This document shows, in pieces, positions 1 through 24,550 of a stretch of DNA of 24,550 nucleotides. The notes under the pieces are model-generated. The model saw nothing but the letters and a program-made list of their open reading frames with translations, made no database searches and was not told where the DNA came from. The stretch is from the IMG/VR virus record IMGVR_UViG_3300048672_000984, positions 1 through 24,550 of that record; one strand, written 5' to 3'. How positions within the stretch are numbered: the stretch's first letter is position 1; every line of letters begins with the position of its first letter. The stretch comes from a virus. The position numbers and the translations under genes were made by a program.

Positions 1-2172
1 ATAGTTGCTACCGGAGCCTCTAATTTTTCAGCTACTAATTACGCCACTGGATATTCTGCTATATTTTACAATAAAAATGGTACAAATGGTTCAAAAGATT
101 TATATAGAAGAATCGTAAGCTCTAACGGAACTTTAGGCACAGCTACGGTATTAGTATATAGTGCCGTACCTGCTTCATCCGCAGTGACACTTAACGGAGC
201 TCCGTATATATTGTTTTATAAGGCGTATTTGCCCTATTTTGATACAATATTCTTAGGTTTTGATGATATGACCAATGGAGTGTTGCGGGTAATAGCTCAA
301 TATGGCAACAGAGGTGGATTTAAAACAGCTTTAAACTCTGGACATATACCAAACCTTCAAATTGTAAATTCCCAAATATGGGGCGCAGGAATTGTTTTAT
401 CAGGAGCTCAAGACCTTAATACCGTACCACTTAAAGTTCCTACTACTGCAACCAATTTTAGAGCCGATTTCTCACAATCTTTAAATTATTTTGATGCAGA
501 ATTAAGTAAAAACCTGCATATTTCTGGCGGTATCTTAAAACTTTATGACGGCTCCACAGTGACAGAGCACGGATTTTTAGAAATACCTCCAACTTCCGGA
601 GCTGGGACATCGGACGGAACTAATTCAGACCAACAAGGTGGATATTTGGCAGCAGCCCCGACTGCAGCGGGCGTAGATGATATAGGAACTTATGTACAAA
701 CATCAGGATTAACGGATTATTTGCCAGGCGGCGATTATTTCGTAAGTTACGTATATGTCTATAGAGATAGAAACGGACAAACACACAGAAGTCCGCCTGC
801 AGTGCCATGGAAAGTTACACTATCTGGAGCAATTTCTTATAAAATGACTCACTATGTAAGAACTCCTACAATAAGCGAAAAAGAAGTTATAGAAATAGAA
901 ATATATAGAACTGTAGCTAATGGAAGCGTATTGTACAGAATTACTGGATTTAGTCCCGGCGGAACTGATAGAATAGTACTACCATCTAGTAGTAGAGATG
1001 GGGCATTTAAAAGTCTTTTAGATTTAGACAAAGCTACTGACCAAACTCTGCCAGCACAGCCGGCATTATATACAGATTCTGGAGAATTAGAAGCCAATAA
1101 CGCACAACCTAGTAGATATATCACAACTCTTAAAAACAGGGTATGGTTACTAAGTTCTGACGGCACCAGAGTTTATTACAGTAAGCTTAATACATTAGGA
1201 ACTCCGATAGAATTTAACGATAACTTATATATTGACCTAGACAGAAGGGGTGGTAATGCCACTGCTTTAGGAGTTTTGGACGAATATTTAGTAATTTTTA
1301 AAGAAAATGCCATATTCCTATTAGCTGGTGAAGGCCCTAATAATTTAGGCGAACAAAATGATTATAGACAGCCTCAATTAGTAAGTTCTGATGGAGGTTG
1401 TAGCGAGCCTAATTCAATAGTAATTTTTCCTCACGGAGTTATGTATAAATCTTCTAAGGGAATATATAGTATTGATAGAAGCCTTAAAACGGTTTATATT
1501 GGCGATAAAGTAGAGCGCTATAATAGCGAAGTTATTACCAGTGCTACGTTAATGCCGACGCTAAATGAAGTAAGATTTACTACAGATAACAAAAAAGCTT
1601 TAGTATATGACTACTATCACAATCTCTGGACTACTTTTACCAATCTGGATGCCGTTGACGCCGTATCTCACGCAAATACATATTACTATTTAAGAGAAGA
1701 TGGTAGAGTAAGGAAAGAAACAGTAGGACTTTTTTCAGATGCTGGAACTTTTATCAGAGCTTTTTTAAGAACAGCTTGGATACAGTTTTCTGGACTACAA
1801 GGCTATCAAAGAATATGGTCATTACAGCTTTTAGGCACTTTTAAATCCAATCACAAGATTATAACAAGATTTGGATATGACTATGACCCCTCCTCTATAC
1901 ACCAAGCTGATATAGATGCTACTCAAATAGCTTCTTCTACTGCATATGGCTCTGGACTTTATGGCGATGGAGTTTTTGGCGGAGAATATCAAGAATGGCA
2001 GTACGAAATAAGGCCTAAAATACAAAAATGCCAGGCCATTCAAATGACATTAGAAGACGCACAAGATGGTGTTTTAGGAGAGTCTTTTGCTATTTCAAAT
2101 ATGGCAGCGGAAGTTGGTGTTATGAATGGACTTGCAAGAACTCCTGCAGCTAATAAAGTCGGAGCTTCGTAA
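1..2172 (+). CDS. Tail nozzle / DNA-stabilisation-like protein, 5' partial
   Basis: The reading frame is open from the first base, so the gene starts outside the window; a GTG at 184 lies inside the frame and is not a convincing start. 723 residues are visible. The middle and C-terminal part (nucleotides about 1100-1680) has alternating short beta-strand segments typical of podovirus nozzle or packaged-DNA stabilisation proteins (T7 gp12 / P22 gp10 type). Examples are RVWLLSSDGTRVYYSK, then a segment ending LVIFKENAIFLLAG, then GIYSIDRSLK and ALVYDYYHNLWTTF, which read like propeller blades. It is followed at once by ejection-type genes, as expected for a tail-tube or nozzle gene. The assignment rests on fold-like pattern and position, not on a diagnostic motif. 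The stop codon TAA is also the first bases of the putative regulatory element at 2170. Confidence 0.6.
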   Translation: MVATGASNFSATNYATGYSAIFYNKNGTNGSKDLYRRIVSSNGTLGTATVLVYSAVPASSAVTLNGAPYILFYKAYLPYFDTIFLGFDDMTNGVLRVIAQYGNRGGFKTALNSGHIPNLQIVNSQIWGAGIVLSGAQDLNTVPLKVPTTATNFRADFSQSLNYFDAELSKNLHISGGILKLYDGSTVTEHGFLEIPPTSGAGTSDGTNSDQQGGYLAAAPTAAGVDDIGTYVQTSGLTDYLPGGDYFVSYVYVYRDRNGQTHRSPPAVPWKVTLSGAISYKMTHYVRTPTISEKEVIEIEIYRTVANGSVLYRITGFSPGGTDRIVLPSSSRDGAFKSLLDLDKATDQTLPAQPALYTDSGELEANNAQPSRYITTLKNRVWLLSSDGTRVYYSKLNTLGTPIEFNDNLYIDLDRRGGNATALGVLDEYLVIFKENAIFLLAGEGPNNLGEQNDYRQPQLVSSDGGCSEPNSIVIFPHGVMYKSSKGIYSIDRSLKTVYIGDKVERYNSEVITSATLMPTLNEVRFTTDNKKALVYDYYHNLWTTFTNLDAVDAVSHANTYYYLREDGRVRKETVGLFSDAGTFIRAFLRTAWIQFSGLQGYQRIWSLQLLGTFKSNHKIITRFGYDYDPSSIHQADIDATQIASSTAYGSGLYGDGVFGGEYQEWQYEIRPKIQKCQAIQMTLEDAQDGVLGESFAISNMAAEVGVMNGLARTPAANKVGAS

Positions 2173-2192
2173 GCTAGATTTTAGCCATATAT
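2170..2192 (+). promoter_or_regulatory. Candidate phage promoter or leader element, copy 1
   Basis: This 23-nt element matches the copy at 7772-7794 at 21 of 23 positions; the shared core is TTTAGCCATATAT preceded by TAAGCTA. It ends 41 nt before the ATG of the acetyltransferase gene (copy 2 ends 42 nt before its downstream ATG). A TAGATA follows both copies, but at different spacing. I see no sigma70 -35/-10 pair around it, so a phage-specific promoter, activator site or transcript-processing site is more likely. This is inference from sequence and position only. Confidence 0.5.
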
Positions 2193-2233
2193 GACTAGAT
2201 ATTCCGGTAATAACGGCATTTAAAAGGTAGAAA

Positions 2234-2572
2234 ATGGCAAGTAATTGGGCTAATTACATAATTGAAAGAGAGGGTAAATTAGTCTTAGAAAAACCGGAAG
2301 GCTTTGCAGTTTATCAATATCTAAAAGACTGGTGCTATATAGTAGATGTTTATGTGGCCCCGGAGTTTCGCGCCACTAGAGTTGCCGCAAAATTAGCTGA
2401 AGAAATTGCTAAAGAAGCTCTGGAAAAAGGATATAAAAAGTTACTAGGAAGCGTAGATACTAGGGCTAATAATGCCACAAAAAGTCTACAATATTTGTTA
2501 CAAAACGGATTTAAATTAATGCATAATGATGAACAGCTTATTTACTTAGAAAAAGCTATAGAGGGCAAATAA
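2234..2572 (+). CDS. GNAT-family N-acetyltransferase
   Basis: At 112 residues this is a minimal GNAT fold. The core beta-4/alpha-3 region is visible as YIVDVYVAPEFR (residues 35-46) followed by a helix, and a later segment (NNATKSLQYLLQNGFK, 79-94) matches the usual 'N..a..lYek.GF' block. GNAT enzymes transfer an acetyl group from acetyl-CoA to an amine; the substrate here is unknown. The pyrophosphate-binding loop, normally R/Q-x-x-G-x-G/A, reads R46-A-T-R49-V-A51, so the first Gly is Arg. The start is supported by AAAGGT seven bases upstream. It lies between the nozzle-like gene and the ejection genes, a position where small acetyltransferases are also seen in other podoviruses; it may modify a host or virion protein late in infection. 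Confidence 0.75.
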   Translation: MASNWANYIIEREGKLVLEKPEGFAVYQYLKDWCYIVDVYVAPEFRATRVAAKLAEEIAKEALEKGYKKLLGSVDTRANNATKSLQYLLQNGFKLMHNDEQLIYLEKAIEGK

Positions 2573-2575
2573 AAA

Positions 2576-3364
2576 ATGGGTTCAGTACTTGGAGGCGGAC
2601 AAGGTGCCGCAAACGACCAATTAAGACAGATTCAAGAACAGCAACAAGCGGCGGCAGCTCAAGCTCAAAATAACTTAAATGCCATTCAACCTCAGACCAC
2701 AGAATTTGGACAAGCTTTGGCAGCTAATGCTTTAGGCAAAGGCAATTCGATTGCTAATGCTCAAATGCAACTTGCAGCTCAAAAAAATCTACAACAGCAA
2801 TTATCCGCAGCTCAGGCTAGCAGAGGGGTTTCCGGAGGACTTGCAAGCCGTAATGCAGCTATGGCAGGAGCTCGTGGGAGCGCCGATATTGCCGGACAAG
2901 CGGGCGTTGCAAGACTTCAAGAGCAGCAACAGCAGCAAAATCAATTTCAAAACTATTTAGGTTCACAACAGCAGTATCAATTGGGTGCATTGGGCGGAGC
3001 TGGTAATACGGCAGCATCATCTGCACAAGCTGAAGCAGCGAAAAGACAAGCTGATAGTGCATTACTTGGAGGATTGTTACAAGCGGGTGGTAGTATGGCT
3101 GCAGCTGGCATAGGGTCTCCTAAAGGCATGGCACAAGGCGGCTTAGTAGAAGCTCCTGAAATAAAAGAGGGCGATAGCCAAGAAAATGATATAGTACCAA
3201 CTATGCTTTCTGGCGGTGAAATCGTAGTCCCTAAGTCTATAGTCGAAAAAGGCGGTAAAGCCGCTGGAAATTTTGTAGACGCTTTAAAACAGCATATGGA
3301 ACTCAAAGAAAAAATCAAAAAAATGTCTTATGGCGATGTTCTAGCTGCAAAAAAGGGAGAATAA
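2576..3364 (+). CDS. Gln/Ala-rich internal virion (ejection) protein
   Basis: 262 residues. The N-terminal two thirds are dominated by Gln, Ala and Asn in runs such as QEQQQAAAAQAQNN and look helical or disordered. A Gly/Ala-rich hydrophobic stretch lies near residues 165-180. The C-terminus carries NDIVPTMLSGGEIVVPKSI (about 205-223), close to the 'D.vPamLtpGEfVVpk' signature common in phage tape-measure and internal virion proteins. It opens a run of three similar genes, the usual arrangement for podovirus ejection proteins that leave the capsid and form a channel through the envelope. GAGGG precedes the ATG at a somewhat long distance, and the preceding stop is only three bases away, so translation is probably coupled. 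The family is inferred from composition, motif and context. Confidence 0.6.
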   Translation: MGSVLGGGQGAANDQLRQIQEQQQAAAAQAQNNLNAIQPQTTEFGQALAANALGKGNSIANAQMQLAAQKNLQQQLSAAQASRGVSGGLASRNAAMAGARGSADIAGQAGVARLQEQQQQQNQFQNYLGSQQQYQLGALGGAGNTAASSAQAEAAKRQADSALLGGLLQAGGSMAAAGIGSPKGMAQGGLVEAPEIKEGDSQENDIVPTMLSGGEIVVPKSIVEKGGKAAGNFVDALKQHMELKEKIKKMSYGDVLAAKKGE

Positions 3365-3365
3365 T

Positions 3366-5033
3366 ATGTCTGACGTTTTTACTCCGTCTCCTCTTAACAC
3401 CGGAGCTCCTAGTGTTGATAATAGTAATCTCATGGGCTCTAATGACCTGCAAAAAGTTCAATTTGCTAATCAGAGTTTACCGGCGCCAATAACTCCACCG
3501 CAAAACCCTGAACTTCCACAGGCTATAGACCCAGCCTTAGCTGCTCAACAAGTGCTAGACACACAAGCTTTGCAACAGCAGACACACACCAATCCTGTAA
3601 ATCAACAACAGCTGCAACAACAAAATTATTTAGGCCTTAATTCCGGCGCACAAAACCCAGAGACTCCGGCATTAACTCCACAAAATTTTCCAAGCGGGCA
3701 ATTAGGCGTTAATACGCAACTTCCGCAATCTCAGCCGCAGCAGCAACCACAACAAAATTTTGCACAACAACTGCAAGACTACTACAAAGCTCAAGAAGCT
3801 TCTTTAGCTAATGAAAAAGATTTAAATACTAAAATTGCTACTACCGGCGCCAGCATGGAAGCCGCTAAAGCAGAGCTATATCAAAATCAGCAAAAACAAC
3901 TTGCTGGATACGCTACAGAACTTGATACGGCACATAAAACAGCAACTGACAAAGTTAATCAATCACTAAAAGAAAGGGAACAGGCTTTAGCAGATTATAA
4001 AGACATGTTAACTGACCCTAAAAAACTTGATGAAGCTTTTAGGCCTAAAGGAATTTTTGAAGGTAAGTCAACTGGACAATCTATTTTAGGAGCTATAGCC
4101 ATAGGATTAGGCGGTATCGGAGCTGCATTTCAAGGCCCAGGTTCTGTAAACCAAGCTTTAAACATTATCCAAAAAAGACTAGACCAAGAAAATGAAGGAC
4201 GTAAAGAAGCTTATAAAACCAAACTTGTCGGTAAACAAAATTTAGCAAACGAAGCTGGGAAAACGGCAGATTTAGCAGGCCAACAAGAAGCTCGAGACAT
4301 TACCGCAATTAACAACAAAAAAATTATGCAGTTAGAAGCTGTTAGCGCTAAGGTTAATCAACTATCTAGCCAATATAATAGTGATACAATGAAGCAGAGA
4401 GCAAGCTTGTTTAACGAAGGTTTAAACCGTCAAATTGGAAGCTTAAAAATAGAAAATGCTAAACAACAATATAGCATGGAAATGATGCGTCAACTAGGCG
4501 GAATGGACCTTGAAAAATTTGAAAAACTTTCTCCTGCCCAACAGCAAATGGTTCCAGAAGAAATGAGAAAAACATTTGCAGAACAGCGTGAACGATATGT
4601 ACCAGGATACGGACTAGCTTCTAATAAAGAAGTTGCTAATGAGTTCAATAAAGCTCGCCCTCAGCTTGAGCAGGTTGTTCAAGGCGGACATAGATTGCTA
4701 GAATTAATGACGCCAGGCGCAAAATTCAACCTTGAAGACAGAGCTAAAATACAAACTATGGCAGGCCTTTTGATGGGACCTATGCGTGAACAAATGGGAT
4801 TTAAAACTCTGACAGAGGGAGACCAAAAACTTCTTGAAAGAGTTATGGGAGACCCTACTGCTATCATGAGTTTAAATAGCTTGCAAAAAACAAGAATGCA
4901 GACTATTATAAATGAAACGCAAAACACTTTGGCTACTAGAGCTAAAGCAGCTGGTATGCAACCTCGTGGCGGAGATGCTTATAATCAGCAGCTTCTACAG
5001 CAGTTTGGCGCTACTAAACCAAAATTTAAATAA
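3366..5033 (+). CDS. Internal virion / DNA ejection-like protein
   Basis: 555 residues. The first ~140 are Pro/Gln/Asn-rich and probably disordered; residues ~145-220 are charged and helical (coiled-coil-like). One short hydrophobic Gly-rich segment follows (SILGAIAIGLGGIGAAFQG, about 238-256) that could insert in a membrane, and then a long helical C-terminal half. This layout is typical of podovirus ejection proteins. One base separates it from the preceding gene (TAATATG junction) and AGGGAG provides a ribosome binding site. No enzymatic motif (for example a lysozyme-like transglycosylase domain) was seen. The role is inferred from neighbours and composition; confidence that it is virion-associated is moderate. 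Confidence 0.55.
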   Translation: MSDVFTPSPLNTGAPSVDNSNLMGSNDLQKVQFANQSLPAPITPPQNPELPQAIDPALAAQQVLDTQALQQQTHTNPVNQQQLQQQNYLGLNSGAQNPETPALTPQNFPSGQLGVNTQLPQSQPQQQPQQNFAQQLQDYYKAQEASLANEKDLNTKIATTGASMEAAKAELYQNQQKQLAGYATELDTAHKTATDKVNQSLKEREQALADYKDMLTDPKKLDEAFRPKGIFEGKSTGQSILGAIAIGLGGIGAAFQGPGSVNQALNIIQKRLDQENEGRKEAYKTKLVGKQNLANEAGKTADLAGQQEARDITAINNKKIMQLEAVSAKVNQLSSQYNSDTMKQRASLFNEGLNRQIGSLKIENAKQQYSMEMMRQLGGMDLEKFEKLSPAQQQMVPEEMRKTFAEQRERYVPGYGLASNKEVANEFNKARPQLEQVVQGGHRLLELMTPGAKFNLEDRAKIQTMAGLLMGPMREQMGFKTLTEGDQKLLERVMGDPTAIMSLNSLQKTRMQTIINETQNTLATRAKAAGMQPRGGDAYNQQLLQQFGATKPKFK

Positions 5034-5042
5034 GGGGTTTTT

Positions 5043-7607
5043 ATGCCTGATAATATTCAAATACCTCCGGCATTAACTCCTAATGTTGGGCCTCAGCCTA
5101 CTCAATATGTAAATCCACAAGAAGTATCACAGGCCTTAAACGAGCCTGTAGCTCCTCAATCTAATCCAGGAGCTCCTAATATATCTGAAGACCCCAGAGC
5201 TCCGGAAAGTACTCAACAACTATTAGACATAAGAAGTGGTAAGATACAGCCAGTTCCTACAAGTCAGGTAGCATCATTAGTCACATCTGGACATTATGAA
5301 CTTCCGACTGATGGTCAACAATATGTAGTACATAAAGAAACTGGAGACTTATTACAAATACCAAACACTGGGTATAAAAACGCCATTTCATCAGGCGAGT
5401 TTTTGCCGGCAAATGACCACGATATTCGCCAAGAAATGTACAAACAAAAATATGGTGATTCAGGTTTAGAAGCTTTAGCTACTGGAGCTGCTCGTGGCGC
5501 TACTTTAGGGCTTTCTGACGTAGCTCTAAGAGGCGCCGGAGTTTCTGCCGGTCGTCTTGCCGGCGTTGAAGTTGCAAATCCAGGATTAAGTATTACTGGC
5601 GAAGTTGTAGGAACCGTTGCAGGAGCTTTAGCGCCTGTAGGGCCGTTAGCCGGAGCCGCAAAAGTCGGAGGAATGGCCGAGAATGTGGCTATTAGAACAG
5701 CAGAAAGAGCTATAGAAAAAGCTGGTATAAATAACCCAATTGCTAAATCAATAGTTGGAAAAATAGTACCTGGAATGGTTGGCGGAGCTGTAGAAGGCTC
5801 TGTATATGGAGTTGGACAACTTATATCTGAAGATATGCTTGGTAAAGCTGATTTTAATGCGGAGAATCTAGCTGCTAGTGTTGGTGCTGGAGCCTTATTA
5901 GGGGCTGGTTTTGGTGCGGGATTTTCAGCATTAAAAGAAGCAGCTCCTGCCGTAGTAAATATGGCTAAGGATAAACTTGAAAAAGCGGGTTTTTCTGACG
6001 TTAAAAAAAATGCTCAAGAATTACTGGGAGTTTCTGACTCAAAATGGGCGAAATACACAAAACACGACAAAAACCTTGCAGACGATGTTGTAAAAGTTTT
6101 AAAAGATGAAAATAAAGTAGGACTATCTATAACGGACGATGCCGAAACAATTTCTAAAAAGATTGAAAACTTTAAACAGTCTTCTGGAGAAAAAATAGGC
6201 GCCGAATTAGAAAATATTAAAGCTGGCGCTGAAAAAGCCCCTGAAATATTACCAGACGCTAAGGAACTTTATAAAAAACTTGAAACTAAGGCTTATAACG
6301 CGGCTAAAGAAATGGAGCTTGCAGAGGGCGTAGCTGCTCCTGAAAAAGCTGCTGACTATGCAGCCGCTAAAAAATATGAAGAACAATATACGGCATTAAG
6401 AAAGGCTACTAAAGAAGGTCAAAAAATAGACATTGACCAGCTTCAGAAAATGAGACAAAGTCTTGATGAAGCCTCTAAATGGGATTTTCAAAAAAATGTA
6501 GACCCTGTTAAAATTGCAATTGCTAAAACTATGCGTCAAACTATGCGAGAAGAAATTGATTTACTAGCCAATAGAGCTGGAGCAGTGTTGGGAACTGATA
6601 TTGAAGCCTCTTTAAAAGCTGCAAACAGAGACTATTACGTCGCATCTAAAATAGCAGACCATGCGGCAGCAAAAGCCGCAAAAGGTTCTCCGGGGTTAGG
6701 CCTTAAAGATATTTTAACAGGAATGATATTCGAACATGTTGGCGGAGGCGCAGTAGCTTCATCAGTAGTAGCTGTAAAAAAAGCTATACAATCCGATTTT
6801 CGCCGTAAAATGGTTGTACTGGGACATGTAGAAAAAGCTAATGTAGCTATTAATAAGCTTATTGATTCTAGTGCCGGAAAATTCTTTACTGCCGGAGTTA
6901 ATGCCGCAGGACAGTCTGTTAAAGTTAGAGAAATTAAAAATCTTACAGAGTTTGAACTTGCTAAAAATGCTGAAGGTAAAAAAGCTAAAACACAACAAGA
7001 AGCTTTTAATAATATATCTTCAAATATACGGTCTTTAGCCGCAAGTCCGCAAAGAACCTTAGAACTTACTAATAAACACACAGCAGGTATACATGACGTA
7101 GCTCCTAATACTTCCGGTGCCTTAGACATGATAGGTGCTAATGCGATTAATTTTTTAAATTCTAAACTTCCGACTAGAAATTCAGAACCAGGAATAATGT
7201 CCAGACAATACCAGCCATCTGGTTTAGAGATGAGTAAATTTGAAAGATATGTTAATGCCGTTCAGAATCCTAAGCAAGTTATAGAGCATTTTAGTGAAGG
7301 TAAGATGAGCCGAGAAGAAGCTGAGACTATTAAATCTGTTTATCCTGATATATTTAGCAGACTTCAAGATAAAGCCATGTCCTATATTGGAGCAAACCCA
7401 AACTTGCCTTATCAGAAGAAGCTTCAGTTAGGTATCCTATTGGACACTAATACAGACCCTAGTTTAAACCCTCAAAATATACTAAAACTGCAAAATAACT
7501 TTCAAACACAACCAGAACAGCCGTCTCAAGGTGGGTCATCTAGTCAAAAAGGTTTGCAATCTATCGAAAAATCTAATAGACTGTCATTAAGTAACGAAGA
7601 AGACTAA
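5043..7607 (+). CDS. Large internal virion / DNA ejection-like protein
   Basis: 854 residues, the largest protein of the ejection trio. After a Pro-rich N-terminus, residues ~75-125 contain a segment of the 'H.etGdl.qiP..g...ai.sGef.p' type. This leads into EALATGAARGATLGLSDVAL (about 142-161), a pattern I associate with large internal proteins of podoviruses. Two Gly/Ala-rich hydrophobic stretches (about 180-210 and 268-300) could span or perturb membranes. Residues ~300-560 are Lys/Glu-rich helices with coiled-coil character. The C-terminus is Gln/Ser-rich. AAGGGG just upstream supports the ATG. The probable role is DNA translocation through the cell envelope at infection; this is inference from composition and order, and no catalytic motif was seen. 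Confidence 0.55.
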   Translation: MPDNIQIPPALTPNVGPQPTQYVNPQEVSQALNEPVAPQSNPGAPNISEDPRAPESTQQLLDIRSGKIQPVPTSQVASLVTSGHYELPTDGQQYVVHKETGDLLQIPNTGYKNAISSGEFLPANDHDIRQEMYKQKYGDSGLEALATGAARGATLGLSDVALRGAGVSAGRLAGVEVANPGLSITGEVVGTVAGALAPVGPLAGAAKVGGMAENVAIRTAERAIEKAGINNPIAKSIVGKIVPGMVGGAVEGSVYGVGQLISEDMLGKADFNAENLAASVGAGALLGAGFGAGFSALKEAAPAVVNMAKDKLEKAGFSDVKKNAQELLGVSDSKWAKYTKHDKNLADDVVKVLKDENKVGLSITDDAETISKKIENFKQSSGEKIGAELENIKAGAEKAPEILPDAKELYKKLETKAYNAAKEMELAEGVAAPEKAADYAAAKKYEEQYTALRKATKEGQKIDIDQLQKMRQSLDEASKWDFQKNVDPVKIAIAKTMRQTMREEIDLLANRAGAVLGTDIEASLKAANRDYYVASKIADHAAAKAAKGSPGLGLKDILTGMIFEHVGGGAVASSVVAVKKAIQSDFRRKMVVLGHVEKANVAINKLIDSSAGKFFTAGVNAAGQSVKVREIKNLTEFELAKNAEGKKAKTQQEAFNNISSNIRSLAASPQRTLELTNKHTAGIHDVAPNTSGALDMIGANAINFLNSKLPTRNSEPGIMSRQYQPSGLEMSKFERYVNAVQNPKQVIEHFSEGKMSREEAETIKSVYPDIFSRLQDKAMSYIGANPNLPYQKKLQLGILLDTNTDPSLNPQNILKLQNNFQTQPEQPSQGGSSSQKGLQSIEKSNRLSLSNEED

Positions 7608-7621
7608 CAAAAGGACTTTCT

Positions 7622-7708
7622 ATGTTTGAGACAATTAGCGCTATAGCAGGTTTTGTAACTATATCAATTTTCCTTATTTTACTAGTTACCGGAGAGTGGG
7701 GAAACTAA
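7622..7708 (+). CDS. 28-residue single-TM micro-protein
   Basis: This short ORF encodes 28 residues: a brief N-terminal MFETISA, then a continuous hydrophobic helix (IAGFVTISIFLILLV) and a short polar tail TGEWGN. AAAGGAC lies at good distance upstream of the ATG. Its TAA overlaps the next ATG (TAATG), so the two mini-genes look coupled. It sits between the last ejection gene and the first adhesin gene, just before the 7772 element. The function is unknown; accessory membrane peptide, lysis regulator or channel component are possible. Codon structure, ribosome binding site and overlap argue that it is translated. Confidence 0.55.
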   Translation: MFETISAIAGFVTISIFLILLVTGEWGN

Positions 7709-7767
7709 TGTTTTTACTGTTTTTAACCATAATTATTCTAATATACCTAGTTGATTTATACATTTAA
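7708..7767 (+). CDS. 19-residue hydrophobic micro-protein
   Basis: The ORF encodes MFLLFLTIIILIYLVDLYI, almost entirely a transmembrane helix. It begins within the stop codon of the preceding 28-residue gene (TAATG) and has a GGGG-type ribosome binding site in the end of that gene. Being so short it could be chance, but the junction style matches other coupled genes in this window (14699, 15649). No function can be assigned. Confidence 0.4.
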   Translation: MFLLFLTIIILIYLVDLYI

Positions 7768-7771
7768 GACA

Positions 7772-7794
7772 TAAGCTACAATTTAGCCATATAT
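7772..7794 (+). promoter_or_regulatory. Candidate phage promoter or leader element, copy 2
   Basis: This is the second copy of the 23-nt element at 2170-2192 (21/23 identical, core TTTAGCCATATAT). It ends 42 nt before the ATG at 7837, nearly the same distance as copy 1, and precedes the start of the adhesin array. Downstream is a weak 5-bp hairpin, CTTAG/CTAAG (7799-7803 with 7809-7813). The function is inferred, most simply a promoter for the fibre block. Confidence 0.5.
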
Positions 7795-7836
7795 AGGCCT
7801 TAGATAAACTAAGAAATCCTAAAAGGAGCCCTATAT

Positions 7837-8184
7837 ATGGCACGTAAACACGTTCATAGCTATACCATTTTTAGAGCGGTAGACGCTACCTCATCTATAT
7901 CCAATTCGACCGCACCCACTGACGTATCTCAAGTAGACAAATTTAACATACATTGCAAATTTTCTGCGGCTAATTCTGGAGATTTTAAGGTTTTTGTTAG
8001 AAACTCCAAAGATGACAGTTATTACGAGCTTAATTTTGGCGCTGCTTTAACTATTACCTCTGACACAGAATGCCTTTTAGAAATCCAAGAAGCTAATTTC
8101 TCTGATATGTATATATCCTGGGTTCCCACTTCTGGGTCTGGCACTTTAACCGCCATTTTACATATGGCTTCTTTAGGAGCTTAA
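7837..8184 (+). CDS. Small virion adhesin-like beta-sandwich protein
   Basis: 115 residues, strand-rich with no enzymatic motif. The C-terminus contains MYISWVPTSGSGTLTA (about 92-107), the same 'v.(W/Y).PTSGSG.i.a' block found at the ends of the proteins encoded at 11734 and 12098, so these three look paralogous. The ribosome binding site AGGAG is strong. It is the first gene after the conserved intergenic element and the head of the fibre array. A virion-surface decoration or adhesin module is the likely role, inferred from context; no receptor can be suggested. Confidence 0.5.
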   Translation: MARKHVHSYTIFRAVDATSSISNSTAPTDVSQVDKFNIHCKFSAANSGDFKVFVRNSKDDSYYELNFGAALTITSDTECLLEIQEANFSDMYISWVPTSGSGTLTAILHMASLGA

Positions 8185-8185
8185 A

Positions 8186-13776: not shown

Positions 13777-13790
13777 CTTAAGGAGACATA

Positions 13791-17834: not shown

Positions 17835-17835
17835 T

Positions 17836-18264
17836 ATGACTAAATACATAATAAAAAACGCAGATTCAGAAGTAGAGTTTATTACCGAGTTAGGAGCTTT
17901 GACGTATCAAAATGCCAAAGGTGGAGAACTTATAATAGTGCAAGTACAGGATTCTCCGCAAAGTACTTTAGATATATTAGAAGCTAAGTCTTTGGATTAT
18001 ATTGATTTCGGGACTGATTTATATACTAAAATAAAACAAAAAGTATGGGCTTTTAATACTCTAGCGGCCAGTAGCGGTTCTCCTATTAATACTCAAAGTT
18101 TAATGGCCTTGTTATCTGCTTCTGATAATTTAGAAAAAGCTCTAAAAACAGGAAGTCTAGATACTGCTATATACGTATGTAATCAGCTAAAAACAGATTT
18201 GCCGACCTACTCCGGCATTGCAGACTACGCTATATTGCAGATAAATACTTTTTTAGGAAGATAA
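17836..18264 (+). CDS. Protein of unknown function downstream of the large fibre
   Basis: 142 residues, no signal peptide or membrane segment. The N-terminal ~40 residues are beta-like; the rest is helical, containing SLDYIDFGTDLYTKIKQKVW (about 52-71), then SLMALLSASDNLEKALKTGS and SGIADYAILQINTFLGR. It begins one base after the fibre stop (TAATATG). I have seen the helical 'DFG..LY..i..k.wa.n' layout in genes just after fibres, where it could be a fibre chaperone or minor virion protein, but I do not recognise a defined family. Function unassigned. Confidence 0.6.
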   Translation: MTKYIIKNADSEVEFITELGALTYQNAKGGELIIVQVQDSPQSTLDILEAKSLDYIDFGTDLYTKIKQKVWAFNTLAASSGSPINTQSLMALLSASDNLEKALKTGSLDTAIYVCNQLKTDLPTYSGIADYAILQINTFLGR

Positions 18265-18265
18265 T

Positions 18266-18760
18266 ATGCAGTTTAAAGTGGGTTTTTCCAGAGCCATCAG
18301 TCCTCTAAAGATAGGCTCTAAGCTTATACAGCTGGTTGAAAAACGGCCATTTTCGCACGTTTACATTGAGTTTATAGACCCTATTACCAGTATTAAGCTT
18401 ATATCGCAAGCATCGCATGGGTATGTAAACCTGGTAAACGCTGAAATATTCTTTAATCAAAACAAGGCAATAGAAGAATATATATTTGAATGCGACGAAC
18501 AGCAGTGGCTTATTATAGAAGCTTTTATGCACAAAAACCTTGGAAAACCTTACTCTCAGCTACAATTATGCCTAATTGCTATAAAAAAATTATTGCATAT
18601 TACGCCGGCAATAAGCAACAAAGACGAAGCTTTTATATGCTCAGAATGGGCAAAAAGAATATGTGATATTGATAACTTACGACTAGATTCCAATATTGAA
18701 ATAGATTATATGACTCCTAGCGACCTAAATACCTTAATAAGGAATATGAAGCTCCAATGA
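18266..18760 (+). CDS. Permuted papain-like (NlpC/P60-related, YiiX type) hydrolase
   Basis: 164 residues. The order of the putative catalytic residues is that of circularly permuted papain-like enzymes: His first in RPFSHVYIEF (H31), then a mid segment NLGKPYSQLQ (91-100), then Cys in EAFICSEWAK (C125). A TPSDL segment near the C-terminus is also usual in this group. Members act as amidases or endopeptidases, sometimes on cell-wall peptides. No signal peptide is present, so export would need the holin just downstream. AGGA and a TAATATG junction support the start. It could be the endolysin-like component of this phage, or a virion-associated hydrolase; the reaction is not demonstrated by sequence. 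Confidence 0.6.
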   Translation: MQFKVGFSRAISPLKIGSKLIQLVEKRPFSHVYIEFIDPITSIKLISQASHGYVNLVNAEIFFNQNKAIEEYIFECDEQQWLIIEAFMHKNLGKPYSQLQLCLIAIKKLLHITPAISNKDEAFICSEWAKRICDIDNLRLDSNIEIDYMTPSDLNTLIRNMKLQ

Positions 18761-19128
18761 AACGTATTAGAATAGGTGAATATAAAGACAGTTTTGTAGG
18801 TATTAAACACAAGCTATTTCTAGGCCTATATGAGATATCATCAGGACACTGGTTTTATTTTAAGGCCGATAAAGAACAGATAGATATGCAATCCCAAAAC
18901 GGCTTTAAAAAAGACTGTATAGTTGTGTGGCAAGAAGACTTACTGCTGCATGATGATACTTTCAGCCGTATTTGGGATTTTTGTTTTAGCCACCTTCATA
19001 TGTCTAAGACTGAAAAAGATTTTTATGATTTTTTGGCAATAACTCTAAAAAAGGATTCTAAACTGGCACATTTTGCTCAGATAATAGATAAAACGGCCCT
19101 AAAAGCTTATTACGGCCCTAAAGGATAA
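18757..19128 (+). CDS. Protein of unknown function in lysis region
   Basis: 123 residues, aromatic-rich, mostly soluble. It begins with MKRIRIGEYKDSFVGIKHKLFLG and contains SSGHWFYFKADKEQIDM and a helical C-terminal half ending AYYGPKG. Its ATG overlaps the stop of the papain-like gene (ATGA), and it is followed after three bases by the holin, so it is probably cotranslated with them. I do not recognise the family. A role in lysis timing or as a partner of the hydrolase is possible from location only. Confidence 0.6.
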   Translation: MKRIRIGEYKDSFVGIKHKLFLGLYEISSGHWFYFKADKEQIDMQSQNGFKKDCIVVWQEDLLLHDDTFSRIWDFCFSHLHMSKTEKDFYDFLAITLKKDSKLAHFAQIIDKTALKAYYGPKG

Positions 19129-19131
19129 AAC

Positions 19132-19551
19132 ATGAAAACTTGGTTACAAGGTATTATAGTATCTCTGGCGGCTGTATTAGCTCCTATCAAAGCAATGATG
19201 ATTACAGCCGGAGTTTTAATTTTTGTCGACCTTGTTACCGGAATTTGGGCCGCTCTTAAATCCGGAGAAAAGATTTCTAGCGCTAAATTACGTAATACGG
19301 TATCAAAAGCTGTAATATATCAAATTGCTATAATTTCTGGTTTTATATGCGAAAAATACTTACTAGACGGAGCTTTGCCAATATCTAAACTTATTGCCGG
19401 AGTTATTGGTATGGTAGAGATAAAATCTGTTTTGGAAAACGCCAATAAAATATTTGATAAGGATATATTTGCATCTATAGTGCAGCAATTAGGCTCTTCA
19501 AACCTTGCCGGGGCTAAAGAAGCCGTTAAAACTGCAGAAAAAAAGGATTAA
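19132..19551 (+). CDS. Holin (phage_holin_4 / TcdE-like)
   Basis: 139 residues with hydrophobic segments at about 5-17, 20-42, 58-75 and 82-97. The central signature FVDLVTGIWAALKSGEKISSAKLR (31-54) is the conserved core of the phage_holin_4 family ('D..tGi..A...g...sS...r'). A basic/polar C-terminal tail (ANKIFDKD ... VKTAEKKD) follows. Holins form membrane lesions that time host lysis. AAGGA upstream fixes the ATG. Neighbours are a papain-like hydrolase and unknown small genes, consistent with a lysis segment. Family assignment is fairly secure; activity not shown. Confidence 0.8.
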   Translation: MKTWLQGIIVSLAAVLAPIKAMMITAGVLIFVDLVTGIWAALKSGEKISSAKLRNTVSKAVIYQIAIISGFICEKYLLDGALPISKLIAGVIGMVEIKSVLENANKIFDKDIFASIVQQLGSSNLAGAKEAVKTAEKKD

Positions 19552-19552
19552 T

Positions 19553-20185
19553 ATGCCTACTAAGCTTCCTTTATTACTGGACCCAAATGCTCCCGATGAA
19601 TCTAAAGCTGGGAAAGCCCAAGAAGCTTTGCAAGCTATGTGGGAAGCTGCAAAAAATAAAACTAAACCAGTAGCAGACGCCGTTAATGCCGGGGTCGAAA
19701 GCCTATCAAATAGTCCTGCAGGAAAATTATTTAATTCCGCAAATGATGCAAGGTCTCAGTTTATAAACAATGCCGCAAATCAAATGAACTTTACAAAGAA
19801 CACAGTAACTCCTCAAGGAGATTTGCAAGGTGTTGAAAATGCTAAAAACGTAATGGACATGGCTCTACCATCTCCTGCAGATGCTCTTCTTTTAGGCGGC
19901 GGTAAGATGGCTGGATTCTTAGGAAAACATGCGCCAGAACTAGCTAGTAAAATTGCAAAAGCTCATGGAGAGTTTATGCAAGTTAATCCATTACTATCCG
20001 AAGTCGGAGCTGTTGGTAAACAGGTCCCTCAAACTGCTGCGCACGCATTAGAAGCTGCTAAAGATACTGGTTTTGGTAAATTGGCAATGGCTCCTATGAC
20101 TCAACAAGAAAAGATACTTGCGGATATGAAACAAAGAGGACAGGCTAGACTAGCAGCTAAGCTTGCCGCCGAAAAAAAACCATAA
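19553..20185 (+). CDS. Ala-rich protein, possibly internal virion or ejection-related
   Basis: I choose the ATG at 19553 (210 residues), one base after the holin stop and preceded by AAGGA; an in-frame ATG at 19505 would overlap the holin gene by 47 bases and lacks need. The protein is rich in Ala, Lys, Asn and Gln and helical, with 'MDMALPSPADALLLGGGKMAGFLG' (about 96-119) as the only mildly hydrophobic part. Its composition is like the ejection proteins at 2576-7607, yet it lies after the holin. Function unknown; a virion-packaged or scaffold-type protein is one possibility. Confidence 0.55.
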   Translation: MPTKLPLLLDPNAPDESKAGKAQEALQAMWEAAKNKTKPVADAVNAGVESLSNSPAGKLFNSANDARSQFINNAANQMNFTKNTVTPQGDLQGVENAKNVMDMALPSPADALLLGGGKMAGFLGKHAPELASKIAKAHGEFMQVNPLLSEVGAVGKQVPQTAAHALEAAKDTGFGKLAMAPMTQQEKILADMKQRGQARLAAKLAAEKKP

Positions 20186-20223
20186 CTCTTGCATTTTTCA
20201 TGCCAGTGTGTTAGGCTATAAAC

Positions 20224-20691
20224 ATGAAAATTAAATTTCGACTTAATATCGGCGCATACAGCATTAACAACTGGACTTATGCCAGCCGTAAGGTAATCAC
20301 AACACAAGCCAGAGAATGGATTCAAGATGTGGTTTATGCGGCTTCTGCTCCGGCAATAACGGCTGAACTAGCAAAGGTTCGCTCCGCTTTTGACCCTAAA
20401 AAGTATTCAATAGGCATACGTATAGTCGAAAATTATCCAGAAAGCAGCTTTTACACTAAAAACGGCACGATATCGGGCCATACGTTCGATAAATCAAACA
20501 TCGAGAAGCCGCTAATAGATATTTTATTCTTGCCTAAGTTTCATGGAAGCTTTCCACCGGAGACGTTCCAAAATCTAAATATAGATGATAAATTTATTAC
20601 GCACATGACTAGCGTTAAAAAGCCAGTTACTGCCGGCGGACTTAGCATAGACATTACTATCTGGCTAATTAGCCGCCCAAAGAATCCATAA
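20224..20691 (+). CDS. RusA-like Holliday-junction resolvase / endonuclease
   Basis: 155 residues. The diagnostic block is D89-K-S-N92-I-E-K95-P-L-I-D99, corresponding to 'DxDNxxKxxxDxL' of RusA, followed by NLNIDDKF (117-124) corresponding to 'gvw.DD..i', and a basic VKKP (131-134). RusA enzymes cut four-way DNA junctions and may help resolve phage DNA before packaging. The second catalytic Asp of E. coli RusA (D72) is Ser91 here. A weak TTAGG precedes the ATG. The 38-bp gap before it has a TTGCAT and a TATAAA but not at canonical spacing. Codon and base style resemble the minus-strand replication genes. It ends convergently with the next gene. Confidence 0.65.
   Translation: MKIKFRLNIGAYSINNWTYASRKVITTQAREWIQDVVYAASAPAITAELAKVRSAFDPKKYSIGIRIVENYPESSFYTKNGTISGHTFDKSNIEKPLIDILFLPKFHGSFPPETFQNLNIDDKFITHMTSVKKPVTAGGLSIDITIWLISRPKNP
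20663..20674. other. 12-bp perfect palindrome at convergent gene junction
   Basis: GGCTAATTAGCC is a perfect palindrome lying in the 23-bp overlap region of the convergent 20224 and 20669 genes and contains the stop codon of the minus-strand gene. It could form a weak bidirectional hairpin or a protein-binding site, but no U-tract follows on either strand, so I do not call it a terminator. Confidence 0.35.
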
Positions 20692-21019
20692 TAACTAACA
20701 CAAGCTTCTTACCGTCCGTAGTCCTAGCTAACATAATTGGCGTGTCTTGATATTTGGCTACTAAATCTGTCCAAGCTTTTGCAGTTTTTGGCAGTTCAAC
20801 CTCTACATCCTGATTGAAGGCTTTAAATAATTGGCGCTCTCCAAACCTTAAGAACCGCTGCATTAAAACCGCGTAACCGTCACTATAAATATTATTATCA
20901 TGGATTTTACGAGCTCTCAAATCGGCTTTATCGTAAAAAGCTTTAAAAGCTTCATCATATTTTTCCTGGATACTTACGTCGATAATGCCGCCTGATTGGC
21001 GATAAAGCTTCAGCTTCAT
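20669..21019 (-). CDS. Protein of unknown function (116 aa)
   Basis: 116 residues, soluble, with a short beta N-terminus (MKLKLYRQSGGIIDVSIQEK), an acidic/basic helical middle (YDEAFKAFYDKADLRARKIHD) and a beta C-terminus ending LVLVIMDSLGG. GAAGGAAG on the minus strand gives a good ribosome binding site, and the ATG overlaps the stop of the upstream micro-gene (ATGA). It is the last gene of the minus-strand block and overlaps the RusA-like gene by 23 bp tail to tail. No family recognised; it may be a host-takeover or replication accessory protein. Confidence 0.6.
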   Translation of the reverse strand: MKLKLYRQSGGIIDVSIQEKYDEAFKAFYDKADLRARKIHDNNIYSDGYAVLMQRFLRFGERQLFKAFNQDVEVELPKTAKAWTDLVAKYQDTPIMLARTTDGKKLVLVIMDSLGG

Positions 21020-21144
21020 TTTTCACTTCCTTCGTTAATAGCTGCTTTTATTATACTATAAGCAAAACCAGCAAACACGGATACAAATGACAAAGCAAAA
21101 ATACAGCCACTAAAATATATTACGTTTAATAAAATCTCATACAT
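21016..21144 (-). CDS. 42-residue TM micro-protein
   Basis: A short minus-strand ORF encoding 42 residues: a hydrophobic segment of about 28 residues (VIYFSGCIFALSFVSVFAGF, then AYSII) and a polar C-terminal tail KAAINEGSEK. AAAGGATG is well placed upstream of the ATG, and the TGA overlaps the next gene's ATG. The chain of overlaps 21241-21146-21016-20669 suggests one operon. One or two membrane helices are possible. Function unknown. Confidence 0.55.
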   Translation of the reverse strand: MYEILLNVIYFSGCIFALSFVSVFAGFAYSIIKAAINEGSEK

Positions 21145-21145
21145 A

Positions 21146-21253
21146 CTATTTCATCCTTTCAAAAATTGCTATCAAAACTATTACTAAAATCGCAAACCCA
21201 AATAAGGCTCCATACCACATAGCTGCTAGCATTATTAAGTCTAAAAGTCCCAT
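21146..21253 (-). CDS. 35-residue TM micro-protein
   Basis: A minus-strand ORF encoding 35 residues: MGLLDLIMLAAMWYGALFGF continuing into AILVIVLIAIF and a short basic tail ERMK, so essentially one long TM helix. Its start lies inside the end of the spanin-like gene (13-bp overlap), and a GGA site precedes the ATG. It ends one base before the 42-residue micro-gene. With the next gene it forms a pair of tiny membrane proteins, possibly lysis accessory or membrane-modulating. Function unknown. Confidence 0.5.
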   Translation of the reverse strand: MGLLDLIMLAAMWYGALFGFAILVIVLIAIFERMK

Positions 21254-21645
21254 GTTAATCCAACTTTAATGCTATCAGCGCCCGCAAGAACGCCAAGGCT
21301 TAGACTACCTAAAATCCGTCTATCTAACGAAGCTTCGATGCGGTTTAAGTCTTTAGAATCGCTATAAACCCCAATTCTCCAGTCCTTTACTAGGACTTCT
21401 GTATTACGGCTTTCATCAGTCTTAGACTCAGCCTTAACGGAGCGGTCGGTAATTGTGGTTGTAGTTTCAGTTTGTCCGTTAGGGACAGTTACAGTGCGAG
21501 TAACGGTTACTACATTATTGCGTACAACTTCCTTTTCTACGACTTTGTCCACCGTTTCAATTCGAGGACTATATTGCCGGCAGATAAAAAAGCCTATTAC
21601 CGCACCAATTGCTAAACTCATGACTCCAATTTTTAAACCGTTCAT
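21241..21645 (-). CDS. Membrane-anchored periplasmic (spanin-like) protein
   Basis: 134 residues. An N-terminal hydrophobic helix (LKIGVMSLAIGAVIGFFI, residues 4-21) follows MNG, with no lipobox. After it comes RQYSPRIETVDKVVEKEVVR (23-43), a helical linker, then a Thr/Val-rich section (VTVTRTVTVPNG, TETTTTITD) and a C-terminal beta pattern (WRIGVYSDS ... SLSLGVLAG ... GLTWDF). The TM-plus-coil layout is like inner-membrane spanins or other phage envelope proteins; the beta C-terminus is unusual for a classic Rz. AGGAGGT is a very strong ribosome binding site just after the polymerase stop. An alternative is a host-envelope modifying protein. It lies on the opposite strand from the holin. Confidence 0.45.
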   Translation of the reverse strand: MNGLKIGVMSLAIGAVIGFFICRQYSPRIETVDKVVEKEVVRNNVVTVTRTVTVPNGQTETTTTITDRSVKAESKTDESRNTEVLVKDWRIGVYSDSKDLNRIEASLDRRILGSLSLGVLAGADSIKVGLTWDF

Positions 21646-21653
21646 AAGACCTC

Positions 21654-23942
21654 CTAGCCTTTCGCTTCTGCATAATTATACCCGAAAGATGGAGTTGCTG
21701 TCAAGGGAAGTTTTAATGCTATTGTCGTTTCCATATGACGCTGCAGTATTTCAGCCGCTTCAGTTTTATGAGCTTCTGAAGAGTGTAGTAATAACTCATC
21801 ATGTACTTGCATGGTTATGTAAGCATCCAAATTACGGGCTTTAAGCTCCTTAGAAATGGCTATAGAAGCTCTATTGATAATGCCGGCGGCAAGACCTTGT
21901 ATTTGAAAGTTATAAGCGTTATTACGGGCGTTCTTGACACGAGAAGCAACTTCTTTTACATGCGCATAAGTAGCCGGCGTATGGTTATAAACTTTCCACA
22001 GTTCCAAGCCGTCAAAAAGTTTCTTACCAAATCTACGATAGTCTTCTACTTCGCGTTGAAACCGGCGTTTACGACCAAGTTCTGTAGTTATATAACCTTG
22101 CTGCCACAAAACTGTTTCTGTATCTTGCATCCATTTTTGCAAATCAGGAAATGCCGCAAGATAGCCGTTGTAAATATCTCTGGCTTCTGACTCTGGAATG
22201 TTTAGAGTTTTACTAAGTGCGTAAGGCCCAAGACCATAGGCGATACCAAGCGAGTATGCCTTGGCCTTTTGTCTTGCTGGTTTATTAAGCTTGCCTAAAT
22301 AGTTTGCAGCCTTTTTATCTGGACTGTATTGTACCAATTTCTCGGCGCCAATAGCAATTTTAGAGTAAAAATCTTCTCCGTTTTTAAAAATGTCTATCAA
22401 GCCCTTATCCCGGCTTACGTGCGCAAAAACTCTAGGCTCTAGAGAATCATAATCGGCGTCTATTAATACATGGCCAGGAAGCGCAATAAAAAACTTTCTA
22501 ATCATGTTTGTGTATTTTTGCTCTAATAAGGTAGACTTGCCGGCTGCAACGGCCTCGTCGTCTATTGGTCTTGGAAGTTGCTGAATGTTTCCGGACAATC
22601 TGCCTGAGACAGTTCTGTGCATAAAATAGCTTGGGTAATATATACCATTTTCCTGGCCTTCTAAAATAGGCTCAAAGTATGTGCCTTTAATCTTTTGTAG
22701 GCCACGAAGCTGCTGTAACAAAGCCGCCCAATCGTATTTACGGGCCATAACTGCTAAGAACTCATCATTGATTTGAGGCGAGCCCTTATCGGTAGTGCTT
22801 ATTGGAGTTTCTTTTAACAAGCTTGGGGTTGTAGAAGTTCCAAAGAAAAGCCGTTTTAAGTGGTCAGTGCTATATAGGTTAAAAGGCCGTTTAATCCCGT
22901 CTTCTGCCATTAACTGGAGCTGTATTTTCTGAGTTAATGTCGGGGGCACGTGTTCTTGCTGGTTTATAAGTCGTTCAAAATGTGTATCAGGTGCTAGTAA
23001 ACCTTTTTTCTTATGCTTTTCAATCTCTACTTTAGACAGCGAAACAACGCCTTTATCTGTCAAAGGCCAGCCTTGTGGCGCTAACTCGCGACCAAGAAGC
23101 TCCTTAAATCTGCCAGAAAGCTTAAACGGATATTTAGTTCGGATGTACCAGTCATTGAAATGCCCTAAGAGAGGCTCAATTTTAATATATACAGAAGTTT
23201 CAATGCTATCTATGTCCTGGTTTATTGCCGTTAATGCTGCAGAAAGCCCGGCAACATCGACCGGAATTCCGCGAGTTTCAGCCGGAATAACTACATGCTT
23301 ATATAGGGGCATAACTTCTTCTTCAAAAAGCTTTAACGAAGCTTCGTCTTTGGCCAAATCCGCCTCAAAACGCTTCCACAAATCAAACGTTAATGCCGCA
23401 TCTTGGGCGCCGTACTTAGCTAAAATATCAGAATCGGCCATGTAGTATTGCTTTTTAGTGCCGCCGTTTCCAGATATTGATTCTAACATGTCATCTTGTT
23501 CTGAGCCTGTACCAATGCCAAAAACTTCCTTTCCTACCTGTTTTAAGCCGTATGACATCCTATTTTCGTCTAGTGTGTGTAAGGCAAGCATTGCGTCTGC
23601 ATGAAGCGCCGGTAATAAGTCAATGCCGGTTTGCGCAACTGTAAATCTATAGTCGAATGAAGAGTTCCACATAATTAGGCGCTTGGAGCTTATTACGGCT
23701 AATAATGCGCTTACATCCTCATATGGCAAAATAGTTTGAAGCTCCGAAGATTGCCAAGCTTTAAGCACGACATATGCAGTAAATTTTTGGCAGGCTACAG
23801 AAAATCCTATTAGAGTATCTTTGCGAGGGTTCAATCCACTAGTCTCGGTATCGTAGCTTAGCTCTGTTTCATCGGCTAGTAAAGCCGTAAGAGCGTCTAC
23901 TTCTTGCTTGTTTCGGGTGATAATAACTTTTCTGTTTTGCAC
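21654..23942 (-). CDS. polA: Family A DNA polymerase with 3'-5' exonuclease (PolA-like)
   Basis: 762 residues from a GTG with AAAGG upstream. Exonuclease motifs: D31-T-E33 (YDTETSG), N93..D97 (NSSFDYRF), Y177..D181 (YGAQDAAL). Polymerase motifs: SGRLS (R448), motif A ADYDSLEPR (catalytic D497, E502), motif B R557-QKA-K561-AYS-L565-GIA-Y569-G and motif C QVHDE (H714, D715, E716). No 5'-3' nuclease domain is present, as usual for phage PolA. The residue equivalent to E. coli Phe762 is Leu565, a variant known in viral PolA surveys and linked there to temperate or slow replication styles. It replicates the phage genome. The start overlaps the upstream nuclease gene by 46 bp. Confidence 0.92.
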   Translation of the reverse strand: MQNRKVIITRNKQEVDALTALLADETELSYDTETSGLNPRKDTLIGFSVACQKFTAYVVLKAWQSSELQTILPYEDVSALLAVISSKRLIMWNSSFDYRFTVAQTGIDLLPALHADAMLALHTLDENRMSYGLKQVGKEVFGIGTGSEQDDMLESISGNGGTKKQYYMADSDILAKYGAQDAALTFDLWKRFEADLAKDEASLKLFEEEVMPLYKHVVIPAETRGIPVDVAGLSAALTAINQDIDSIETSVYIKIEPLLGHFNDWYIRTKYPFKLSGRFKELLGRELAPQGWPLTDKGVVSLSKVEIEKHKKKGLLAPDTHFERLINQQEHVPPTLTQKIQLQLMAEDGIKRPFNLYSTDHLKRLFFGTSTTPSLLKETPISTTDKGSPQINDEFLAVMARKYDWAALLQQLRGLQKIKGTYFEPILEGQENGIYYPSYFMHRTVSGRLSGNIQQLPRPIDDEAVAAGKSTLLEQKYTNMIRKFFIALPGHVLIDADYDSLEPRVFAHVSRDKGLIDIFKNGEDFYSKIAIGAEKLVQYSPDKKAANYLGKLNKPARQKAKAYSLGIAYGLGPYALSKTLNIPESEARDIYNGYLAAFPDLQKWMQDTETVLWQQGYITTELGRKRRFQREVEDYRRFGKKLFDGLELWKVYNHTPATYAHVKEVASRVKNARNNAYNFQIQGLAAGIINRASIAISKELKARNLDAYITMQVHDELLLHSSEAHKTEAAEILQRHMETTIALKLPLTATPSFGYNYAEAKG

Positions 23943-24445
23943 TTTTTTGCCTTTCTTTTGGCAATGTTAAATTTACGTTCAATAACAGTTTGCCAATGTA
24001 ACATCAAATCTTCAAACTCTGCTCTCGGTATCCTATAATACTCAGTAGTATATCCGATATTAGCTCTAGACTCAAGCTTGAATCCTTTTTTTCGCACTAA
24101 TGCCTCAATACGCTTAACAAGTCTTAAAGTCTCAAAAAGATACAATTTATCGTCATTTATAAAGTAGTAGGCGAAGTATTTGCAACCATGCTCCAAGCTT
24201 TGAAATGGGCCTCCGGGCTTTCCTGGTCTTGACCAGCGTTCAAGCACAAAGTTAGTCCATTTATCATGACTGTAAGAATCACACTTTAACTCTATTTTAA
24301 ACTCAGTACCTTTAACTTTAAAGTCTCCTTGTCTGCCGTCCGTGGCTTCTAGGAGCTCTCCATATTTTTCAAAAAACTTTTTTTCGCCGTCTTGTCCTCG
24401 TTTTAGGTCTTTAAAAAAGCTCGAAGCTGGTTTTATGTATGTCAT
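23897..24445 (-). CDS. PD-(D/E)XK-family nuclease
   Basis: 182 residues. The motif set is visible in order: RGQDGEKKF (E22), GRQGDFKV (D41), FKIELKC (E52-x-K54) and TNFVLER (E69), the normal acidic-acidic-E-x-K arrangement of PD-(D/E)XK nucleases. A C-terminal basic tail (AKRKAKKCKTEK) may bind DNA. The fold is shared by restriction, recombination and phage end-processing nucleases; the substrate cannot be told from sequence, but the place next to the polymerase suggests replication, recombination or host-DNA breakdown. AAGGAC is well placed before the ATG, which overlaps the stop of the upstream gene (ATGA). Confidence 0.75.
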   Translation of the reverse strand: MTYIKPASSFFKDLKRGQDGEKKFFEKYGELLEATDGRQGDFKVKGTEFKIELKCDSYSHDKWTNFVLERWSRPGKPGGPFQSLEHGCKYFAYYFINDDKLYLFETLRLVKRIEALVRKKGFKLESRANIGYTTEYYRIPRAEFEDLMLHWQTVIERKFNIAKRKAKKCKTEKLLSPETSKK

Positions 24446-24550
24446 TTGCCGTCCTTGGCCGTTCTTGCGGCGGTTAAGGCTTTAAACTGAAAACTGTCGT
24501 GATGGTCGGTCCGCTCTGTGTCCCATATCTGCATGAAACCACGAAGGGGT
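24442..24550 (-). CDS. C-terminal end of an upstream gene, partial
   Basis: The minus strand is open from the window edge to a TGA that overlaps the nuclease ATG (ATGA), giving 35 visible residues ending LTAARTAKDGK. They are polar and include IWDTERTDHHDSF. The tight overlap is the same coupling style seen elsewhere, so this is probably the tail of the next replication gene. Too little is visible for a function. An internal ATG would make a 30-residue peptide, which I think less likely. Confidence 0.5.
   Translation of the reverse strand, partial: PLRGFMQIWDTERTDHHDSFQFKALTAARTAKDGK

Follow-up and report, generated by a model that had tools for sequence, protein, structure and literature searches.

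Predicted nucleases accompany the loss of GATC or GGCC from phage genomes

Introduction

What removes one short palindrome completely from the genome of a phage? The question is raised by a linear IMG/VR record (G000), all of which is analysed here. This stretch of 24,550 bp, referred to as the window, is part of the genome of an uncultivated tailed phage. A sequence-only reading of the window had claimed that GATC is entirely absent and had attributed this to a GATC-cutting host restriction system, thus predicting a host with such a system, or to avoidance of Dam/MutH. There is ample evidence that Type II systems of the host drive site avoidance, and GATC was found to be under-represented in all 46 phages whose hosts encode matching enzymes (PMC6286503).

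Results

Absence of GATC from the window

An exact count with a second-order Markov expectation over the whole window, a check that the sequence-only reading had itself proposed, gave 0 GATC where 46.8 were expected. The claimed absence thus held, far beyond chance, and the former estimate of about 80 expected sites was of the right order, base composition alone predicting nearly 90. Among all 256 tetranucleotides, GATC is the only one with a zero count. It is followed by CGCG, which is itself depleted (8 found, 25 expected), and TGAG (29 found, 59 expected). Synonymous shuffling of codons within genes, which keeps both the proteins and the codon usage, yielded an expectation of 44.4 +/- 5.1 GATC with a minimum of 28 in 300 shuffles. 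Aspartate codons preceding a C are GAC in 31 of 31 cases and never GAT, while 237 GAT and 132 GAC precede A, G or T, and the isoleucine codon ATC never follows a G in the window genes. GATC is avoided mostly by synonymous codon choice and, based on the shuffling expectation and the codon choice around would-be sites, selection against it acts at the DNA level. AGCT, which had been held up as a common counterpart of GATC, is indeed common, but the contrast was slightly exaggerated as AGCT is strongly over-represented (269 found, 202 expected under the Markov model; 259 in genes with 175 expected from codon shuffling).

Gene content of the window and its nearest relatives

Besides proteins of the tail and virion, the window encodes a holin and a DNA polymerase of family A. 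The features relevant to this analysis are:

1-24550, no strand: viral contig, GATC-free (0 found, 46.8 expected)
184-2172, plus strand: internal virion or tail-like protein (phrog_511, E 9e-16)
19132-19551, plus strand: holin (PF05105)
20224-20691, plus strand: 155-aa conserved neighbour, an edge marker of the replication module in relatives
20669-21019, minus strand: 116-aa conserved neighbour, which in relatives adjoins the slot holding nuclease A or B
21654-23942, minus strand: family A DNA polymerase with a 3'-5' exonuclease domain
23897-24445, minus strand: nuclease A, a 182-aa predicted PD-(D/E)XK endonuclease, proposed to be GATC-specific

The end of the nuclease A gene and the start of the polymerase gene overlap by 46 bp, and a purine-rich stretch precedes the start of the nuclease A gene, an arrangement consistent with coupled expression of the two proteins.

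Megablast of the window against 50,697 phage records returned no match and hence no close relative, and the polymerase or the tail protein, used singly to search viral contigs, did not detect relatives either. Alignments were needed: with a polymerase alignment, relatives could be detected, the nearest two sharing a common gene order being the 57-kb contigs G001 and G002.

Loss of GATC or GGCC within the phage family

G001 resembles the window in containing no GATC (0 found, 128 expected). G002, which is equally close and has the same gene order, contains 222 GATC with 212 expected and instead lacks GGCC (0 found, 55 expected). Another relative with this gene order, L005, also has a normal GATC content (93 found, 84 expected). 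We defined the family as the 80 loci having the major capsid protein of G001 and G002. Of these, 12 are GATC-free, 49 GGCC-free and 12 neither, with 7 being too short to tell. Palindrome tests with an expectation of at least 8 gave a zero count in 42 of 1,121 cases, every one of them GATC or GGCC, and none of the 17,997 tests of non-palindromic words in the same scan did so. In L172 and L176, two small contigs closely related to each other, there is at most one GATC and no GGCC, but the expectation for GGCC is itself no more than 4 to 5. A scan for missing motifs in family members that have both GATC and GGCC found nothing common to them, the individual cases being CCWGG in L150 (0 found, 16 expected) and RGCGCY in L181 (0 found, 9 expected). 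On the capsid tree, at least 3 changes are required to explain GATC-free status and about 10 to explain GGCC-free status.

Two nucleases in one slot

Nuclease A is encoded in all five large GATC-free family records (the window, G001, G013, G035 and G041) and in none of the GGCC-free ones. At the place corresponding to nuclease A, G002 carries a PD-(D/E)XK-like gene that is unrelated to A, from here on referred to as nuclease B. Nuclease B was found in nine GGCC-free family records (G002, G017, G022, G029, G037, G039, G044, G046 and G049) and in no GATC-free one. The slot beside the homologue of the 20669-21019 gene is occupied by A in G001 and G013 and by B in G002, G017, G037 and G044. Others have B in this slot by the same homologue with small insertions. 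In G035, as in the window, A is found on the opposite side of the polymerase. Comparing loci by gene sharing, A and B were never found together in one locus. It should be noted that the capsid tree offers only one or two independent A/B pairs within the family, too few for significance.

Association beyond the family

A blind search of viral contigs using a five-sequence alignment of A identified 36 loci on contigs of up to 365 kb with a GC content of 31 to 50%. In 35 of these, GATC reaches at most 10% of expectation; 28 have none and seven retain 1 to 5 sites, so that, leaving out the one exception, 11 GATC sites remain in total where 1,717 are expected. GGCC is normal across the 36 A loci, with more than 10% of the expected sites in each. 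The corresponding search with an alignment of B identified 54 loci, all 54 of which have zero GGCC (658 expected in total) and more than 10% of the expected GATC. Whole A records with zero GATC include G067 (661 expected, 205 kb), G075 (753 expected, 215 kb), G081 (384 expected), G080 (364 expected), G068 (233 expected), G066 (145 expected) and G063 (98 expected), and whole B records with zero GGCC include G097 (443 expected) and G096 (52 expected). The B pattern extends to a cultured Rhodothermus myovirus, RM378 (NC_004735), with 0 GGCC in 129,908 bp where 158 are expected. This phage is unrelated to the family and was detected only via its B homologue (Rm378p099) at 36.5% identity.

For comparison, loci sampled by polymerase give base rates of 3 in 78 for zero GATC and 4 in 64 for zero GGCC. 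Fisher tests of the two associations yield p = 5e-22 and 1e-25, values that overstate independence as many loci are related. Grouped by gene sharing, A occurs in five GATC-free clusters and one that is an exception, and B in seven clusters, six of them informative and one too short to inform. Three queries for nuclease A in cultured phages gave no match. Neither nuclease A nor the capsid protein had a match in bacterial genomes, and therefore no restriction-modification context or host can be inferred from them.

Further palindromes are missing from individual genomes. RM378 (L199-L201) likewise has no CTAG (0 found, 115 expected), which suggests a second enzyme or another pressure. G067 (L313-L323, 205 kb) has no GCGC (0 found, 562 expected) besides lacking GATC, and G081 (L344-L352, 164 kb) no GTAC (0 found, 241 expected). 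In 13 of the 36 A loci, G081 among them, GTAC does not exceed 10% of expectation and may represent a third specificity.

The most serious competing explanation is that hosts carry enzymes of the MboI/DpnII/Sau3AI type, that the phages lost the site to escape them and that the nuclease gene is a bystander. The documented role of host Type II systems in site avoidance (PMC6286503) speaks for it, as do G003, G004 and G005, which are GATC-free yet do not carry A. Escape from host restriction, however, leaves the match of A with GATC and of B with GGCC unexplained, which shows no cross-over and holds in unrelated phages as well as in relatives that swap the content of one slot. Further, host-driven loss should hit varied sites, whereas in the family only GATC or GGCC is zero where this is testable. 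We thus regard this explanation as unlikely.

Motifs and predicted fold of nucleases A and B

The hallmark of the PD-(D/E)XK nuclease superfamily is an acidic residue on a beta strand followed by (D/E)xK on the next strand, often with another acidic residue on the first helix. Residues E21, D41, E52, K54, D56, Y58, N65, E69 and G78-G79 of nuclease A are invariant among its first five homologues, and nearly all of the 26 distinct sequences keep the helix GE, the strand D, E-x-K, the downstream N...E and GG. Nuclease B has the conserved motifs GE, PD, DL and K(S/G/T), with E49, D81 and V-K93 as its predicted catalytic set and the second acidic residue usually replaced by His. AlphaFold models were obtained at a mean pLDDT of 82.5 for A and 88.2 for B. 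The best fold match of A is the homing enzyme I-Ssp6803I (Z 9.2 over 126 residues, 3.2 A), followed by PvuII, Hjc, RecU and DpnI. For B, the best match is Eco15I (Z 9.4 over 119 residues, 3.0 A) with NhoI (Z 8.6 to 9.4 for Eco15I and NhoI), I-Ssp6803I, DpnI (Z 8.4) and PvuII as other matches. As Z values near 8 can come from a common arrangement, these matches speak for membership of the superfamily but do not single out a relative. Judged by motifs and modelled fold core, both proteins appear to be members of the PD-(D/E)XK superfamily.

Neither A nor B matched Pfam or NCBIfam, and A did not match PHROG. The window nuclease and its G001 homologue had no Pfam match up to E 0.1, including DpnII (PF04556) and MutH/Sau3AI (PF02976), and the window nuclease showed a weak match to PADLOC (E 0.0065). 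The likeness of A to DpnI is distant and structural only. DpnII, MboI and Sau3AI are missing from the structural match lists, which is no evidence against that fold.

The models also bear on a second alternative, in which A and B would be nucleases of replication, for instance Holliday junction resolvases, and site loss would reflect an incidental sequence preference or a linked trait. The A gene does lie in the replication module and the A model matches RecU and Hjc (Z 6 to 7.5, no sequence match) as well as the fusellovirus D212 nuclease. Resolvases, however, recognise structure and have a loose preference for sequence, which should not force total site loss from 200 to 300 kb, and the best matches of B are restriction enzymes, which makes this alternative improbable.

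Search for a methyltransferase partner

PF02086 was detected neither in the first 12 records nor in the window and six others, and among further records it was absent from 42 of 44, with partial matches in G071 and G072. No PF01555 match exceeded the cut-off in 27 records, and PF00145 was found in 2 of 43 (G013 and G022). Within the scope of these three families and of records some of which are fragments, cognate methyltransferase genes appear to be absent from the window and mostly so from the other carriers. The cognate partner that characterizes Type II restriction-modification is thus seemingly lacking. Protection by methylation is unnecessary in a genome that has no GATC site.

Exceptions to the association

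The one A locus with substantial GATC content is L254 (9992-10586 in record G088), where the homologue has an insertion but keeps the catalytic residues and the genome contains 318 GATC with 584 expected. In G088, CGCG is zero (117 expected) and ACGT is reduced to 16 (178 expected), and this homologue may have changed specificity. Conversely, G003, G004, G005, G062 and L009 are GATC-free or GGCC-free and have neither A nor B. G003 (L091-L093, 59 kb) contains 0 GATC with 167 expected, and G005 (L095-L097, 44 kb) lacks GATC, GGCC, CCGG, GCGC and GTAC altogether. No other PD-(D/E)XK protein emerged as a convincing candidate when G003, G005, G062 and L009 were searched by regular expression. Given such phages, loss of GATC or GGCC can also have other causes or be due to unrecognised nucleases.

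Discussion

We consider it very likely that the window phage encodes a methylase-free GATC endonuclease and that its genome has been purged of this site as self-protection. Starting from the absent sites, the one-to-one pairing of the nuclease present (A or B) with the missing site, the motifs, the predicted fold and the lack of cognate methyltransferase genes in most records, we infer that A and B are cleaving enzymes with GATC and GGCC as their respective sites and that carrying the nuclease was what drove site loss. The phage would produce the small endonuclease A, recognising GATC and having no partner methyltransferase, and purifying selection would have cleared its own genome of GATC, mostly synonymously, leaving A unable to cut it. 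During infection, A would then attack GATC sites elsewhere, most likely in the host chromosome, which would supply nucleotides and shut down the host; competing phages or plasmids may be further targets. Related phages would have B in the same slot and a genome cleared of GGCC instead.

The sequence-only reading was right in naming a GATC-recognising nuclease as the likely selective agent, but the cause it gave, host restriction or Dam/MutH, is probably wrong. GATC absence tracks a nuclease encoded by the phage, relatives with another nuclease in the same slot lack GGCC, and this pattern does not predict a host with a GATC system. MutH acts at GATC, so that escape from methylation by Dam or repair by MutH, an idea put forward for T7-like phages, would hit the right site; still, it is very improbable, as the syntenic L005 has normal GATC and relatives lack GGCC, which has no link to Dam or MutH. 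An artefact of sequencing or library preparation removing GATC-containing reads can practically be dismissed, as genes are intact, reading frames run continuously over the avoided positions, avoidance proceeds by codon choice and RM378, a separately sequenced isolate, shows the same pattern for B and GGCC.

Several known systems resemble the proposed one in part. The study of restriction-site avoidance describes short palindromes likewise lost under nuclease selection but assigns the pressure to host enzymes (PMC6286503), whereas the phage's own nuclease is proposed here. DpnII, MboI and Sau3AI (GATC) and HaeIII (GGCC) have the same sites as those proposed for A and B, and several of them share the PD-(D/E)XK fold. 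Unlike these Type II systems, A and B appear without a partner methyltransferase, match neither Pfam nor NCBIfam and are located in phage replication modules. Chloroviruses, including PBCV-1, NY-2A and relatives, encode site-specific endonucleases with sites of 2-4 bp that are presumed to break down the DNA of the host within minutes after infection; their genes always adjoin that of a cognate methyltransferase, whose methylation protects the viral DNA (PMC7019647). A virus-encoded endonuclease with a short site, here a predicted one, is common to both, but the phages studied here infect bacteria, lack the site and have no detected cognate methyltransferase, and A and B, unlike the chlorovirus enzymes, could not be linked by sequence to any named family. 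Endonucleases II and IV of T4 degrade host DNA and spare phage DNA, hydroxymethylcytosine marking self. Self is thus recognised by base modification in T4, whereas here it would be recognised by absence of a short palindrome. By analogy with T4 and the chloroviruses (PMC7019647), the most plausible advantage would lie in the cleavage of host DNA.

Searches of open-access literature yielded no published description of phage enzymes that have no methylase and whose sites are absent, making the novelty provisional. It is likely, with somewhat less confidence than for the window itself, that A and B represent a widespread form of self/non-self discrimination without a mark, in which exchangeable methylase-free enzymes are accommodated by genomes of up to 300 kb lacking the matching word. 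If so, the missing palindrome in a phage genome would reveal the specificity of its enzyme, and the combinations GCGC and GATC (G067), GTAC and GATC (G081) and CTAG and GGCC (RM378) would point to further enzymes. The usual reading of site avoidance would be reversed, as a missing palindrome may mark the phage's own weapon and not that of its host. Restriction enzymes and their specificity could be predicted from sequence alone, by locating an absent word and then the gene accompanying it, and two uncharacterised enzyme families, A and B, would gain predicted sites. This also raises an evolutionary question, namely how such an enzyme can be acquired before the genome is free of its site and how enzymes are swapped in one slot.
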